From positions 1-57,775 of the forward strand of contig JAJDTI010000005.1 of assembly GCA_022827245.1 (NCBI GenBank): a stretch of 57,775 nucleotides of DNA, given 5' to 3'. The DNA is from Pseudomonadales bacterium (GTDB taxonomy: Bacteria; Pseudomonadota; Gammaproteobacteria; Pseudomonadales; Azotimanducaceae). Position numbers and translations under genes: made by a program. Below are positions 40,096 to 47,359 of this stretch, one piece after another (within the stretch, counting starts at the first letter, position 1; every line of letters begins with the position of its first letter). The notes under the pieces were generated by a model, which saw only the letters and a program-made list of their open reading frames with translations, was not told the DNA's origin and did no database searches.

Positions 40096-42327
40096 GTGTT
40101 CGAGTGGCTCTTCAAGTACCCGTCCGACGTCTACCGCGAGGCGGTGTTCACGTTCGGGACGGACCTCGCGCCGGCGTGGTGGATTCTCCTCGGCGCCGTC
40201 GCGGTCGCCCTGCTTGCGGCGAGCCTGGTGCGGCGTGGCCGCCTCGCCCGCTGGCCCGTCCCGCGGCGGCTCGTCGTGTTCGGCTTTCAGGCGGCGACGC
40301 TCGGCGTGATCCTGGCGGTGCTGGCGGAGCCGACGCTGATGGTGCGCCAGCTCAAGCCGGGGGCGAATACGGTCGCCGTGCTGATCGACGATTCCGAGAG
40401 CATGTCCCTGGGCGCGGGCAGCGGGGAGTCGCGCCTCGCCGTGGCCCGGCGCCTCGCCGAGCGCGCCATCGTCCCCGGCGTCGGGGAGCGTTCCAGCGTG
40501 GCCCTATTCCGTTTCGCGGAAGGCGCGCGTCGCATCGAGTCCCTGGACGCGCTCTCCGCGGACGGCGGTCGCACGCGCGTGCTCGCCTCCCTGGCCGAAG
40601 CCGCCGGCGCGTTCGACACCGATGCCCTCGCTGCCGTCATCGTCCTGACGGACGGTGCGGCCAACGCCGATGCCGGCGACGATCCCGGGACCCTCCTGGC
40701 GGCCGGCGTACCGGTGCATACGGTGGGCATCGGCCCGGGCGCGAACCCCGGCGACGTCGAACTCTCCTCGGTAGCGCTGCCGCGCACGGTGCCGCCCGGC
40801 AGCGAGGTGACGGCGCGGCTCACCCTGCGGCACGCGACCGCCGGCGACGTCCGCCTGCGCGTCCGCGACGGCGAGGACGTGCTGGCGGCGAAGACGATCG
40901 CACTCCGAACCGAAGGCGCCGTCACGAGCGTCGACATCGCCGTCCCGAGCGGACGGCCGGGCCTGCGGGAACTCACCTTCGAGATCGAGCCGCCGCCGGG
41001 GGATCCGCTGCCCCGCAACGATGTCCGTCGGCAACTGCTCGAGGTGGCCGAACGCCGGCACCGCGTGCTCCATCTCGAGGGCGAGCCGCGCTGGGAGTAC
41101 AAGTTCCTCCGCCGCGCGGTGGCGGAAGACGACGTGATGGACATCGTGAGCTGGCTCAGGACCACCCCGCGCAAGACCTATCGACAGGGCGTGTCGGAAG
41201 TCGACGAACTCGCGGAGGGGTTCCCGGACGACCTGTCGAAACTCTATGCGTACGACGTGGTCATCCTCGGCAGCCTGCCCGCCGCGGCCCTGGACGACGA
41301 GCAGCACGCGTGGCTCGAGTCCTTCGTCGGCAAGCGCGGCGGCGGGTTGCTGGCGCTGGCCGGCCGCGACGCGCTGGCGGACGGGGGCTGGGATGTCACA
41401 CCGCTTGCGAGAGCGCTCCCCGTGACCCTCGAACGGAGCGAACGGGCCTCCTACCGGTCGGTCGAAGGGGCCGCGCGCCCGGCGCCGGAGGGACGCGGCT
41501 CTCCGGTGGCCTCTCCTGTCGGATTGACCGGTGCGGGCGAGTCGGACGGCTGGGCGGGCCTGCCGAGACTCGCGGACTACCAGGCGCTCGGTCCGGTCAA
41601 GCCCGGTGCGACGGTGCTGCTCGAGTGGGTTGGCGACGAAACCGTCGCGCCCCTTCTGGTCGAACAGCCCTACGGGTTCGGCCGCGCGGCGGTGCTCGCC
41701 TCGGCGACCACCTGGCGCTGGCGCATGCGCACGCCGCCCGACGATCCCCGGCACGGGCTCTTCTGGAGACAGTTGCTGCGACACCTCGCGCAGGCGGCAC
41801 AGCAGCGGGACCGCGTCACGGTGGAGGGCGGCCCGGACGCCCTCGCGGTGCGCTTGGCCCTGCGGGACGAGCGCTACGAGCCGGTCGCGGACGCGGACGT
41901 GCGCGCGACGATTACCGGACCGGACGGAACCGCGTTCGAGGGAACGCTCGCAGCGGGCGGGGAGAACGGCGCGTTCGAGGCGCGGTGGCAACCCGGCGTC
42001 CCGGGGGTGTACCGGGTGGACGTGACGGCGCGGGCTCGCCAGAACGAGCACGTGGCGACGCGCTTTGCCCGGGTCGGCGCCGACGATTTCGAGTACTTCG
42101 GGGCAACGCTCAACAGGCCCCTCCTCGAACGCATCGCCGAGGCGACGGGCGGCCGGTACTGGGAGCCGGACGGCGTCGCCGGGATCGCGCGGACGGTCGC
42201 GCTGGAGGGGGCCGGTGTGCGGGAGCAGCGCGCGTTGCCGCTCTGGGACGCGCCCTTCTTCTACGTGCTCATCGTGTTGCTCAAGTGCCTGGAGTGGGGG
42301 CTGCGCCGGTGGTGGGGAGGCATATGA
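40096..42327 (+). CDS. Membrane VWA protein (BatA/B-like) with amidotransferase-like core
   Basis: GTG 40096 starts a 743-residue protein. Membrane spans lie near residues 28-45 and 58-78, and another at 718-738. A von Willebrand A domain follows the second span, with an intact MIDAS sequence D98-D-S100-E-S102 and a later LTDGAAN acidic loop. A beta-rich domain comes next, then a glutamine-amidotransferase-like region (YDVVILGSLP, GGGLLALAGRDALADGGW). VLEWV, AVLASATTWRWRM and RVDVTARARQNE lead to the final membrane span. Such proteins bind partners via metal on the periplasmic side and work with MoxR ATPases. Its stop overlaps the next start (ATGA), indicating tight coupling. Confidence 0.88.
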   Translation: MFEWLFKYPSDVYREAVFTFGTDLAPAWWILLGAVAVALLAASLVRRGRLARWPVPRRLVVFGFQAATLGVILAVLAEPTLMVRQLKPGANTVAVLIDDSESMSLGAGSGESRLAVARRLAERAIVPGVGERSSVALFRFAEGARRIESLDALSADGGRTRVLASLAEAAGAFDTDALAAVIVLTDGAANADAGDDPGTLLAAGVPVHTVGIGPGANPGDVELSSVALPRTVPPGSEVTARLTLRHATAGDVRLRVRDGEDVLAAKTIALRTEGAVTSVDIAVPSGRPGLRELTFEIEPPPGDPLPRNDVRRQLLEVAERRHRVLHLEGEPRWEYKFLRRAVAEDDVMDIVSWLRTTPRKTYRQGVSEVDELAEGFPDDLSKLYAYDVVILGSLPAAALDDEQHAWLESFVGKRGGGLLALAGRDALADGGWDVTPLARALPVTLERSERASYRSVEGAARPAPEGRGSPVASPVGLTGAGESDGWAGLPRLADYQALGPVKPGATVLLEWVGDETVAPLLVEQPYGFGRAAVLASATTWRWRMRTPPDDPRHGLFWRQLLRHLAQAAQQRDRVTVEGGPDALAVRLALRDERYEPVADADVRATITGPDGTAFEGTLAAGGENGAFEARWQPGVPGVYRVDVTARARQNEHVATRFARVGADDFEYFGATLNRPLLERIAEATGGRYWEPDGVAGIARTVALEGAGVREQRALPLWDAPFFYVLIVLLKCLEWGLRRWWGGI

Positions 42328-46439: not shown

Positions 46440-47359
46440 ACGCACCCGCCGGGGCGCGCACGCCGACGCGCCTGATCCCGCCGGAGATCCTGGCCGGGCT
46501 CGGCAACCTGGAACTCGTGGCGCGGGCGGTGGTGGACGGCATGCTGAACGGGCTGCACCGGACCGACGTGTTCGGCTTCAGCCAGGAGTTCGCGGAGTAC
46601 CGCGACTACGTGCCCGGCGACGACCCGCGCTTCGTGGACTGGAACGCCTACGCGCGCACGGGCCGCCCGTACGTCAAGCGCTTCGAGGGCGAGACCAACA
46701 CCCGCCTCATGCTGATGCTCGACGTGAGCGCGTCGATGGGGTTCGGGGGCGGACTCGGGGGCGAAAAAGCGTCTAAGCTCGACTACAGCCGATGGCTGGC
46801 CGCGGCGCTCGCGTGGTTGGCTCATCGCCAGCACGACGCCGTAGGGCTGCTGGCCTTCCACGACACGGTGGCCGCGTTCCAGCCGCCTTCGGGGCGCGGC
46901 GTGGCGGGGGAGCGCCTCTTCCACACCCTCGACGGGTTGCGCGCGGGTTCGGGGACGGACTGGCCGGCGGCGTTGCGGCACCTCGGCGCACGCGTCTCGC
47001 GGCGCGGCATCCTCGCGGTGCTCTCGGACTTCTACTGTGCGCCCGACGTGCTCGGTCAGGCCTTGCGGGGGCTGTGCGTGCGGGGACACGACGTGTTCCT
47101 CCTGCATGTCCTCGACCCCGCCGAGCGGCGACCGGACGTGGGCAGGGGCGCCGCGCTGCGCGATGCGGAGACGGCGGAGGTCATGGAAGTCGACGGGCTG
47201 GAGCTGCGGTCCGGGTACCCCGAGCGGCTCGCGGAGCACGAGCGGGGACTGCGGCGCGCGGCGGCGTCCGCCGGGGCCGACTACGTCCGCGTGGACACCG
47301 ACCAGCCCCTCGACCGGGCGCTCTTCGAGTACCTGCGGTTCCGCGCTCGCCAGTCATGA
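46436..47359 (+). CDS. DUF58 protein with von Willebrand A-like domain
   Basis: GTG 46436 overlaps the moxR stop. The 307-residue protein has the DUF58 core: GFSQEFAEYRDYVPGDDPRFVDWN and YARTGRPYVKRFEGE. A VWA-like domain follows with MIDAS residues D96-V-S98-A-S100 in LMLDVSASMG, and ILAVLSDFYCAPD later. There are no membrane spans, so it is cytoplasmic and likely bridges MoxR to the membrane VWA proteins. The low-complexity GGGLGGEK loop just after the MIDAS is unusual. It ends 22 bases before the BatA-like gene. Confidence 0.92.
   Translation: MNAPAGARTPTRLIPPEILAGLGNLELVARAVVDGMLNGLHRTDVFGFSQEFAEYRDYVPGDDPRFVDWNAYARTGRPYVKRFEGETNTRLMLMLDVSASMGFGGGLGGEKASKLDYSRWLAAALAWLAHRQHDAVGLLAFHDTVAAFQPPSGRGVAGERLFHTLDGLRAGSGTDWPAALRHLGARVSRRGILAVLSDFYCAPDVLGQALRGLCVRGHDVFLLHVLDPAERRPDVGRGAALRDAETAEVMEVDGLELRSGYPERLAEHERGLRRAAASAGADYVRVDTDQPLDRALFEYLRFRARQS

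Follow-up and report, generated by a model that had tools for sequence, protein, structure and literature searches.

MoxR-VWA machines are, to our knowledge, widespread, and the target of most of them is not known. In the Bat (Bacteroides aerotolerance) operons, a TPR protein is encoded together with MoxR, a DUF58 protein and two membrane VWA proteins, one of which has the BatA domain, and BatD is a defining part of the operon. NorQ/NorD, as outlined in PMC13036017 and PMC9976466, pairs a MoxR ATPase with a single, soluble, MIDAS-bearing VWA partner that acts on a known respiratory target in the membrane. In the MoxR-vWA ternary conflict systems, MoxR, vWA and caspase-superfamily domains are co-encoded and the caspases are often inactive; PMC7159879 describes VMAP, iSTAND or FtsH as third components together with EADs and gives no sign of secreted effectors. 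Pseudo-orthocaspases are caspase-fold proteins in which the catalytic Cys is substituted, often by Ser (PMC6426788). They are p20 proteins with Tyr-Ser as the commonest combination and are found chiefly in Alphaproteobacteria and Cyanobacteria.

The window analyzed here is a stretch of 57,775 nucleotides from a Pseudomonadales bacterium (contig JAJDTI010000005.1). It contains an eight-gene cluster that is a new variant among MoxR-DUF58-BatA operons; a description of such a cluster was not found in the open literature searched. Compared to the Bat operons, the TPR protein bears a gluzincin domain and three proteins are added, namely a predicted legumain-fold pseudoprotease, a DUF4159 protein and a DUF4175-like protein. 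The nine window proteins scanned gave no BatD match at E ≤ 0.1. In contrast to NorQ/NorD, membrane VWA proteins and two protease-fold proteins are present, and predicted export, DUF58, BatA and the gluzincin distinguish the cluster from the ternary systems. The family of the legumain-fold protein is nearer to peptidase family C13 than the pseudo-orthocaspases, retains the His and is bound to one gene cluster. Unlike legumain and the GPI-transamidase PIGK (both C13), the window protein lacks Cys and has an EF-hand-like insertion and a helical C-terminus. The gluzincin domain differs from those of collagenase (M9) and lugdulysin (M30) in that a TPR arm flanks it on either side and its gene stands in a cluster with MoxR and DUF58.

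Gene order and conservation of the cluster

All genes of the cluster lie on the forward strand. Five consecutive intact ORFs, each with one terminal stop, form the middle of the conserved cluster. They encode a membrane VWA and GATase1-like protein (40096-42327), the legumain-fold (C13-like) predicted pseudoprotease (42324-43196), a TPR protein with a predicted gluzincin domain (43186-45417), a MoxR AAA+ ATPase (45414-46439) and a DUF58 protein with a VWA MIDAS (46436-47359). The overlaps are 4, 11, 4 and 4 bases, in agreement with the preliminary description of this DNA. The upstream member is a DUF4159 protein of 266 aa (36697-37497; PF13709, 152.6 bits, over the cut-off). Downstream, the GTG start of a BatA-type membrane protein (47382-49334) lies 22 bases past the DUF58 stop, and a DUF4175-like membrane protein (50753-54076; PF13779, 20.2 bits, below the cut-off of 27.3) is the last gene. 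The single module proposed previously is supported, but at five genes it was drawn too narrowly by these three. In the window, two other ORFs (37499-39226 and 39270-40061) separate the DUF4159 gene from the VWA gene, and the DUF4175-like gene is preceded by an inserted gene for a Cys/Met PLP enzyme (49421-50692).

For comparison, loci in Proteobacteria and Acidobacteriota were anchored on the C13-family gene via one peptide pattern, and the best 80 of 242 loci were analyzed. A further scan scored 7997 candidates and listed 120 of 339 hits. Among these, the VWA/GATase gene is present in 80/80, the TPR protease in 78/80, MoxR in 74/80, DUF58 in 65/80, BatA in 64/80 and DUF4175 and DUF4159 in 53/80 each. 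DUF4159 is on the cluster strand in 48 of its 53 loci and on the opposite strand in 5; it was not found in 27 of the 80, and in just 8 of these does the locus break off close to the cluster on the DUF4159 side. By stop position there is a single gene order on the cluster strand, with 0 of the best 80 loci deviating.

The same 80 loci show how tightly the genes are packed. Overlaps of 4 bases are found at the junctions VWA/C13 (65/80), C13/TPR protease (58/78), TPR protease/MoxR (27/74), MoxR/DUF58 (19/65) and BatA/DUF4175 (43/53). When only junctions permitted by the reading frame are counted, the first four rates become 65/73, 58/61, 27/38 and 19/32. Start codons at control positions amount to 5-9%, so that all four junctions are above chance. 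If, more coarsely, every start is counted that gives an overlap of up to 14 bases, the values are 42% against a control of 34% for TPR protease/MoxR and 31% against 25% for MoxR/DUF58. By this measure the last two junctions are only slightly above control, whereas the control specific for 4 bases places them above chance, in fewer loci.

At the genome level, the VWA, C13 and TPR-protease genes are found in the identical 36 of 149 Acidobacteriota genomes. In the window's class (185 genomes), strong matches to all three coincide in the same 2 (thresholds E ≤ 1e-20 for VWA and TPR protease, E ≤ 1e-10 for C13). The C13 match in G631 spans 81 of 286 positions and the TPR-protease match in G085 is interrupted by the contig end. 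We did not count as members the partial A4 matches (E 2.1e-11 to 8.6e-4) that 21 further genomes of the class contain, nor the partial A2 matches in G030, G150, G501, G607 and G629. Within the window's phylum (299 genomes), a full-length VWA/GATase match is present in the window's own genome only. There are weak partial matches in 15 others, of which 6 adjoin a BatA-like and 2 a DUF4159-like gene; no C13 match lies beside these 15 in loci of ~4 kb.

In a comparison confined to genes of the cluster, the trees of six members agree with each other (patristic r 0.81-0.98; 52 clusters, comprising 51 loci and the window), compared to a maximum r of 0.20 for the shuffled C13-MoxR comparison. Three Acidobacteriota clusters have the same cyclic gene order cut at a different point. 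Individual clusters can miss parts. In 5/30 Acidobacteriota loci the TPR protease is missing between C13 and MoxR, which are either adjacent or separated by a DUF4159-type gene, and a second cluster in G584 (L187) has VWA/GATase, DUF4159, MoxR, DUF58, BatA and DUF4175 genes and neither C13 nor TPR protease. C13 is separate from the VWA gene in 4/36 Acidobacteriota genomes; adjacency in these 36 was read by eye. The caspase-like and TPR-protease genes had been named before as the distinctive part of the module, and conserved neighborhoods and co-occurrence bear this out. Their homologs are not found mostly away from MoxR, DUF58 and VWA genes, since the VWA, C13 and TPR-protease genes share both loci and genomes.

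The TPR protease and its proposed membrane and cytoplasmic partners

The TPR protease has a signal-peptide-like N-terminus and three predicted domains, an N-terminal TPR arm (27-302), a protease domain (303-531) and a C-terminal TPR arm (535-743). The protease domain is collagenase-like and has a gluzincin fold according to prediction. Its HExxH motif at residue 404 is kept in 75/80 rows and Glu425, presumably the third metal ligand, in 76/80; the remaining 5 and 4 rows, respectively, are gaps. The protein thus keeps an intact HExxH...E motif and is a predicted protease. Its PF13485 score is just under the gathering threshold (31.3 against 32.4 bits). Among the 120 homologs listed for it, most have a precomputed PF13485 assignment. 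HExxH is present in 20/20 longer copies, of which L161 repeats the L071 copy. It was not seen in 15/21 TPR-protease ORFs of short loci, which stop at ~500 codons.

The MoxR protein is identified by PF07726 (206.6 bits) and PF17863 (57.7 bits). Its Walker A motif GxPGxAKT is kept in 74/78 rows and the other 4 are gaps. A partial bpMoxR match (PF20030, 32.5 bits, cut-off 27) scores far below PF07726. The DUF58 gene (PF01882, 159.3 bits) adjoins MoxR with a 4-base overlap. Its product keeps DxSxS in 64/66 rows (2 gaps), has 0 predicted TM segments and is taken as cytoplasmic.

For the VWA/GATase protein, PF07090 (23.1 bits) and PF13519 (22.0 bits) are both under the cut-off of 27, yet the MIDAS motif DxSxS, to which the invariant Asp98 belongs, is kept in 75/81 rows, which are all that reach the motif (6 gaps). 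Three TM segments are predicted, and hydropathy and charge suggest that the soluble part is periplasmic. A conserved Cys was not found in this protein; the best column has 6/24 rows. The BatA-type protein exceeds the cut-off of PF07584 (36.1 against 25.9 bits), matches TIGR02226 (37.2 bits) and has three predicted TM segments. A Pfam VWA match is not listed for it. Its MIDAS residues Asp101, Ser103 and Ser105 are present in 62/73, 61/73 and 62/73 rows, with 10 gaps. The assignments made previously for the MoxR, DUF58, VWA and gluzincin proteins hold. A DUF4175 domain occurs in A. baumannii AdvA (PMC7481262); a division role is not claimed for the window protein because its Pfam score is under the cut-off.

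The cysteine-free legumain-type protein

A structure model supports a caspase-type or legumain-type fold for the protein encoded at 42324-43196 (P0002), which has a signal-peptide-like N-terminus. HHalign aligns it to eight C13 proteins with E 6.5e-14 over 182 columns and to C14 (7 of 12 C14 loci) with E 8e-7 over 97 columns. By profile comparison, the protein is nearer to C13/legumain than to C14/caspase. The earlier term pseudo-caspase was essentially right, but by profile legumain is the nearest family. No match to PF01650 and no C14 match in Pfam was found for the window protein at E ≤ 0.1, and its CHAT match is below the cut-off (20.6 against 24 bits). The PF01650 cut-off of 22.8 is passed by two relatives, P0121 (25.0 bits) and the G085 copy (32.1 bits). 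Comparison of P0121 with solved structures gave chance-level matches only.

The window protein contains zero Cys; an active cysteine protease is thus ruled out. Ser135 aligns, with no gap, to the nucleophile Cys of SACYSG in the C13 alignment, and His94 aligns to the catalytic His of SHG/GHG. At the position of the nucleophile in the C13 alignment, Cys is absent from all 120 listed homologs, all 80 loci (best 80 of 242) and all 30 deep relatives; these sets overlap. Alignment to metacaspase-4 or seven C14 proteins opens a gap and puts Ala136 instead of Ser135 on the Cys. Ser135 is taken as the nucleophile position because the C13 alignment is stronger and gapless. Position 136 is Cys in 2/120 listed homologs, 5/80 loci (best 80 of 242) and 2/30 deep relatives. 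Under the C14-type alignment, these few relatives could retain some activity. Most likely, the window protein is a pseudoprotease.

The EF-hand-like loop (residues 180-191, DTNKDGAVGATE; 42861-42896, forward strand) noted before is real. Asp180 and Glu191 are present in 120/120 listed homologs, 30/30 deep relatives and 80/81 aligned rows, with one gap. The loop is a family trait, which by itself does not demonstrate calcium binding.

Models for the cluster

We tentatively propose that the eight-gene cluster builds one inner-membrane machine. The predicted cytoplasmic MoxR ATPase and its DUF58 partner would be the motor, and the membrane VWA proteins would transmit its action to a predicted periplasmic pair, the TPR-flanked zinc protease and the Cys-less legumain-fold protein. 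The latter may serve as a substrate-binding adaptor for the protease. We know of no precedent for MoxR acting across a membrane. By analogy with NorQ/NorD, strain exerted by MoxR on a VWA partner could make the envelope complex change shape and thereby open or close access to the protease. NorQ remodels the NorD linker, as summarized in PMC13036017, and the NorD MIDAS is required for function and dispensable for NorQ binding, as summarized in PMC9976466. For the cluster, we infer both the coupling to ATP and the function; its purpose would most likely be protein quality control or the maturation of an envelope protein. The envelope quality control and the stress trigger suggested earlier draw on analogy.

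A more specific proposal is trans-envelope AAA+ proteolysis, with a cytoplasmic MoxR-DUF58 motor, membrane VWA subunits, a TPR-held periplasmic protease and a dead legumain choosing what is cut. This is conceivable, albeit doubtful. If true, the inner membrane would separate the motor from the blade in a pseudoprotease-gated AAA+ protease, a kind of which we know no description. An intact predicted protease, probably the tool or client of the machine, is encoded in the cluster itself, and a predicted pseudoprotease is found in the same genomes as this protease. The cluster further marks out a family whose legumain-type fold lost its cysteine and was retained in two phyla. A vague idea of envelope stress thereby gives way to a complex that can be tested subunit by subunit and by point mutation, in genera that include cultured strains. 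Among the isolates that have the cluster are Povalibacter uvarum DSM 26723 (L024), Steroidobacter gossypii (L034) and Peristeroidobacter (L049, L053), which are not known to be pathogenic.

A Bat-type chaperone or maturation complex is an unlikely but serious alternative. The task of MoxR-DUF58 and the VWA proteins would be to assemble an envelope enzyme or supply it with metal, with the TPR protease acting as a maturation protease or scaffold that is not ATP-gated. The MoxR, DUF58, BatA and TPR proteins match the content of bat operons (PMC11834572), and NorQD inserts metal (PMC13036017). However, HExxH is intact in every TPR-protease copy that reaches the motif, and the pseudo-legumain, which bat operons as described lack, accompanies the VWA/GATase gene in 36/36 Acidobacteriota and 2/2 class genomes counted. 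Deletion of bat genes in Leptospira biflexa gave no growth or oxidative phenotype (PMC3557215), and therefore the bat analogy predicts little.

The proposed adaptor might instead be an active serine hydrolase or transpeptidase with Ser135 as nucleophile and His94, so that the cluster would have two working proteases. His94 and Glu213-His214 are found in 120/120 and Ser135 in 119/120 listed homologs, and retention of His94 and mostly Ser135 is unusual for a dead protease. In 30 deep relatives, which lie beside the same VWA/GATase gene, residue 135 is nevertheless Pro, Asn, Glu or Thr in 4 and His214 is replaced by Asn, Arg or Thr in 11. We know of no serine-nucleophile member of the legumain/caspase-type fold, which also counts against this reading. 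It is weakened by these substitutions and appears improbable.

A role of the cluster in biological conflict (anti-phage), as in MoxR-vWA systems, is very unlikely. The ternary systems described by Kaur et al. 2020 (PMC7159879) do combine MoxR and vWA with caspase-like domains, and ~70% of their effector-position caspases are inactive; the partial bpMoxR match and the CHAT match below cut-off of the window proteins point the same way. The signal-peptide-like N-termini of both protease-fold proteins, on the other hand, contrast with the lack of any sign of primary-effector secretion in that paper, where DUF58 has 0 occurrences. Furthermore, 0/7 cluster proteins match PADLOC models at E ≤ 0.001, and gene order and gene trees are stable, so that the defense reading is weakened.

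Coincidental neighbors with no common function, suggested by the other genes inserted after DUF4159 and before DUF4175 in the window, are hardly credible, and a chance neighborhood is ruled out by genome-level co-occurrence, concordant gene trees and an order that is conserved over two phyla and survives cyclic permutation.

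The cluster in the window and in related loci

In the window, the genes of the VWA/GATase protein (40096–42327), the legumain-like C13 protein (42324–43196), the TPR protease (43186–45417), MoxR (45414–46439) and DUF58 (46436–47359) are intact and encoded on the same strand, with overlaps of 4, 11, 4 and 4 bases, as the preliminary description had reported. Its proposal of a five-gene module holds for the linkage of these ORFs, but the unit is larger and also includes BatA, DUF4175-like and DUF4159 genes. The BatA-domain gene (47382–49334, forward strand; PF07584, 36.1 bits) starts 22 bases past the DUF58 stop. 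A gene for a Cys/Met-metabolism PLP enzyme (49421–50692; PF01053, 433.7 bits) is inserted between it and the DUF4175-like gene (50753–54076, forward strand). The DUF4159 gene (36697–37497, forward strand) is located upstream of the VWA/GATase gene with two other ORFs intervening. One ORF in this interval (37499–39226, 575 aa) presumably resembles a fusion of a methyltransferase with an HNH-type C-terminus, judging by its motifs. Elsewhere in the window, two tandem 310-aa ORFs (22260–23192 and 23287–24219) have nearly identical N-termini, and similar-looking ORFs are present at 21230–22147 and 30135–31154.

A profile built for the legumain-like protein and run against genome contigs yielded 242 related places, the best 80 of which were retained. 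Among these 80 loci, a VWA/GATase-like gene is present in all, the TPR protease in 78, MoxR in 74, DUF58 in 65, BatA in 64, and DUF4175 and DUF4159 in 53 each. The conserved neighbourhood of the caspase-like protein (here C13-like) and the TPR protease with MoxR and DUF58, which had been suspected from the window alone, is thus confirmed. By stop-codon position of all genes on the cluster strand, the order is DUF4159, VWA/GATase, C13-like, TPR protease, MoxR, DUF58, BatA, DUF4175. The PLP-enzyme insertion recurs in one of the 80 loci only (L007), and two (L011 and L018) have a gap of ~3 kb between TPR protease and MoxR. Most missing members belong to clusters lying no more than 1500 bases from where the examined DNA stops (TPR protease 2/2, MoxR 6/6, DUF58 14/15, BatA 15/16, DUF4175 26/27). 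For DUF4159 this applies to only 8 of 27 misses and, where present, the gene is on the opposite strand in 5 of 53 loci; it is therefore the least constant member. According to their titles, the 80 loci derive from Gammaproteobacteria, other Proteobacteria and Acidobacteriota, many of the latter Bryobacterales; isolates include Povalibacter, Steroidobacter and Peristeroidobacter.

Genome sets picked independently of the C13-like gene gave the same answer. In 185 genomes of the window's class (taken as Gammaproteobacteria from the titles of loci L007 and L008), strong VWA/GATase, C13-like and TPR-protease matches are confined to the same two genomes and are mutually adjacent. Among 149 genomes of Acidobacteriota, to which the L071 genome belongs, 36 have a member of the VWA/GATase family; the C13-like protein occurs in the same 36 and the TPR protease in these 36 plus three weak partial matches elsewhere. 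By coordinates, C13 adjoins the VWA/GATase gene in 32 of the 36 (exceptions G500, G610, G626 and G631). The TPR protease lies <1 kb from C13 in 26, 10–11 kb away on one contig in seven and on a separate contig in three. The 16 genomes behind the loci have one strong C13 match apiece, with weak and partial second matches in five. An eight-gene conserved module with a dead and a live protease, as predicted from their residues, is well supported.

Coupling, inheritance and rearrangement

Overlaps of 4 bases join VWA/GATase to C13 in 65 of 80 loci (65/73 where the frame allows), C13 to TPR protease in 58/78 (58/61), TPR protease to MoxR in 27/74 (27/38), MoxR to DUF58 in 19/65 (19/32) and BatA to DUF4175 in 43/53 (43/47), all within the best 80 of 242; start codons occur at 5–9% of in-frame control positions. 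By a coarser measure of any overlap, the two junctions flanking MoxR are close to control. The DUF4159–VWA junction has no 4-base overlap (0/12). Gene trees of six members from 52 clusters are concordant (r 0.81–0.98; shuffled C13–MoxR maximum 0.20), which fits inheritance of the cluster as a block.

In three of the seven wide-gap Acidobacteriota genomes (L181–L183), the order reads TPR protease, DUF4159, MoxR, DUF58, BatA, DUF4175, VWA/GATase, C13. Locus L188 reads VWA/GATase, C13, TPR protease, DUF4159, MoxR, DUF58, BatA, DUF4175. Both share a cyclic order and thus correspond to one gene circle opened at two points. A second cluster in G514 (L190) has no TPR protease; that in G584 (L187) contains VWA/GATase, DUF4159, MoxR, DUF58, BatA and DUF4175, with C13 and TPR-protease matches absent. 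In other genomes of the window's phylum (L095–L102), weak VWA/GATase-like matches lie beside a BatA- or DUF4159-like gene and C13 is not matched; these may represent the same core minus the protease pair.

Relation to described systems

A bat paper (PMC11834572) places DUF58, VWA and TPR proteins alongside MoxR, with links to stress; for Leptospira biflexa, no growth or oxidative phenotype is reported upon bat deletion (PMC3557215). The MoxR-vWA conflict systems (PMC7159879) differ in that DUF58 is absent from the portion of their description consulted, whereas the window cluster contains it. In the PMC open subset, which leaves aside subscription papers and preprints, no paper on MoxR together with legumain and no description of the eight-gene cluster was found. 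The sole paper there on DUF4159/DUF4175 concerns A. baumannii AdvA (PMC7481262), and its excerpt does not mention MoxR, BatA or DUF58. The cluster is best called one of the MoxR-DUF58-BatA kind, in a form previously undescribed as far as the open-access literature shows.

Predicted topology and a possible mechanism

Hydropathy indicates three transmembrane segments each for the VWA/GATase and BatA proteins. The loop between the first two is positively charged and the tail contains Arg; by the positive-inside rule, the VWA domains would face the periplasm. A cytoplasmic location is assumed for DUF58, which has no transmembrane segment by hydropathy, and for MoxR, whose single hydrophobic peak adjoins its Walker A motif. 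Judged by sequence, the N-termini of both the C13-like protein and the TPR protease resemble signal peptides; only that of the former reaches the hydropathy threshold.

By analogy with NorQ/NorD, MoxR-DUF58 may strain the membrane VWA proteins, whose MIDAS sites on the periplasmic side would bind the pseudo-legumain via an acidic residue; the pseudo-legumain could in turn hand substrates to the protease held by TPR arms. This model of ATP-driven proteolysis, reached by reasoning, is tentative and slightly short of an even chance.

At the position of the legumain nucleophile, the deep C13-like relatives L138, L139, L156 and L158 have N, P, T or E, with His retained. A Glu-His pair (TEHP; C13-like residues 213–214, window 42960–42965) is invariant in 120 of 120 homologs. 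Its Glu is kept in all 30 deep relatives and its His in 19.
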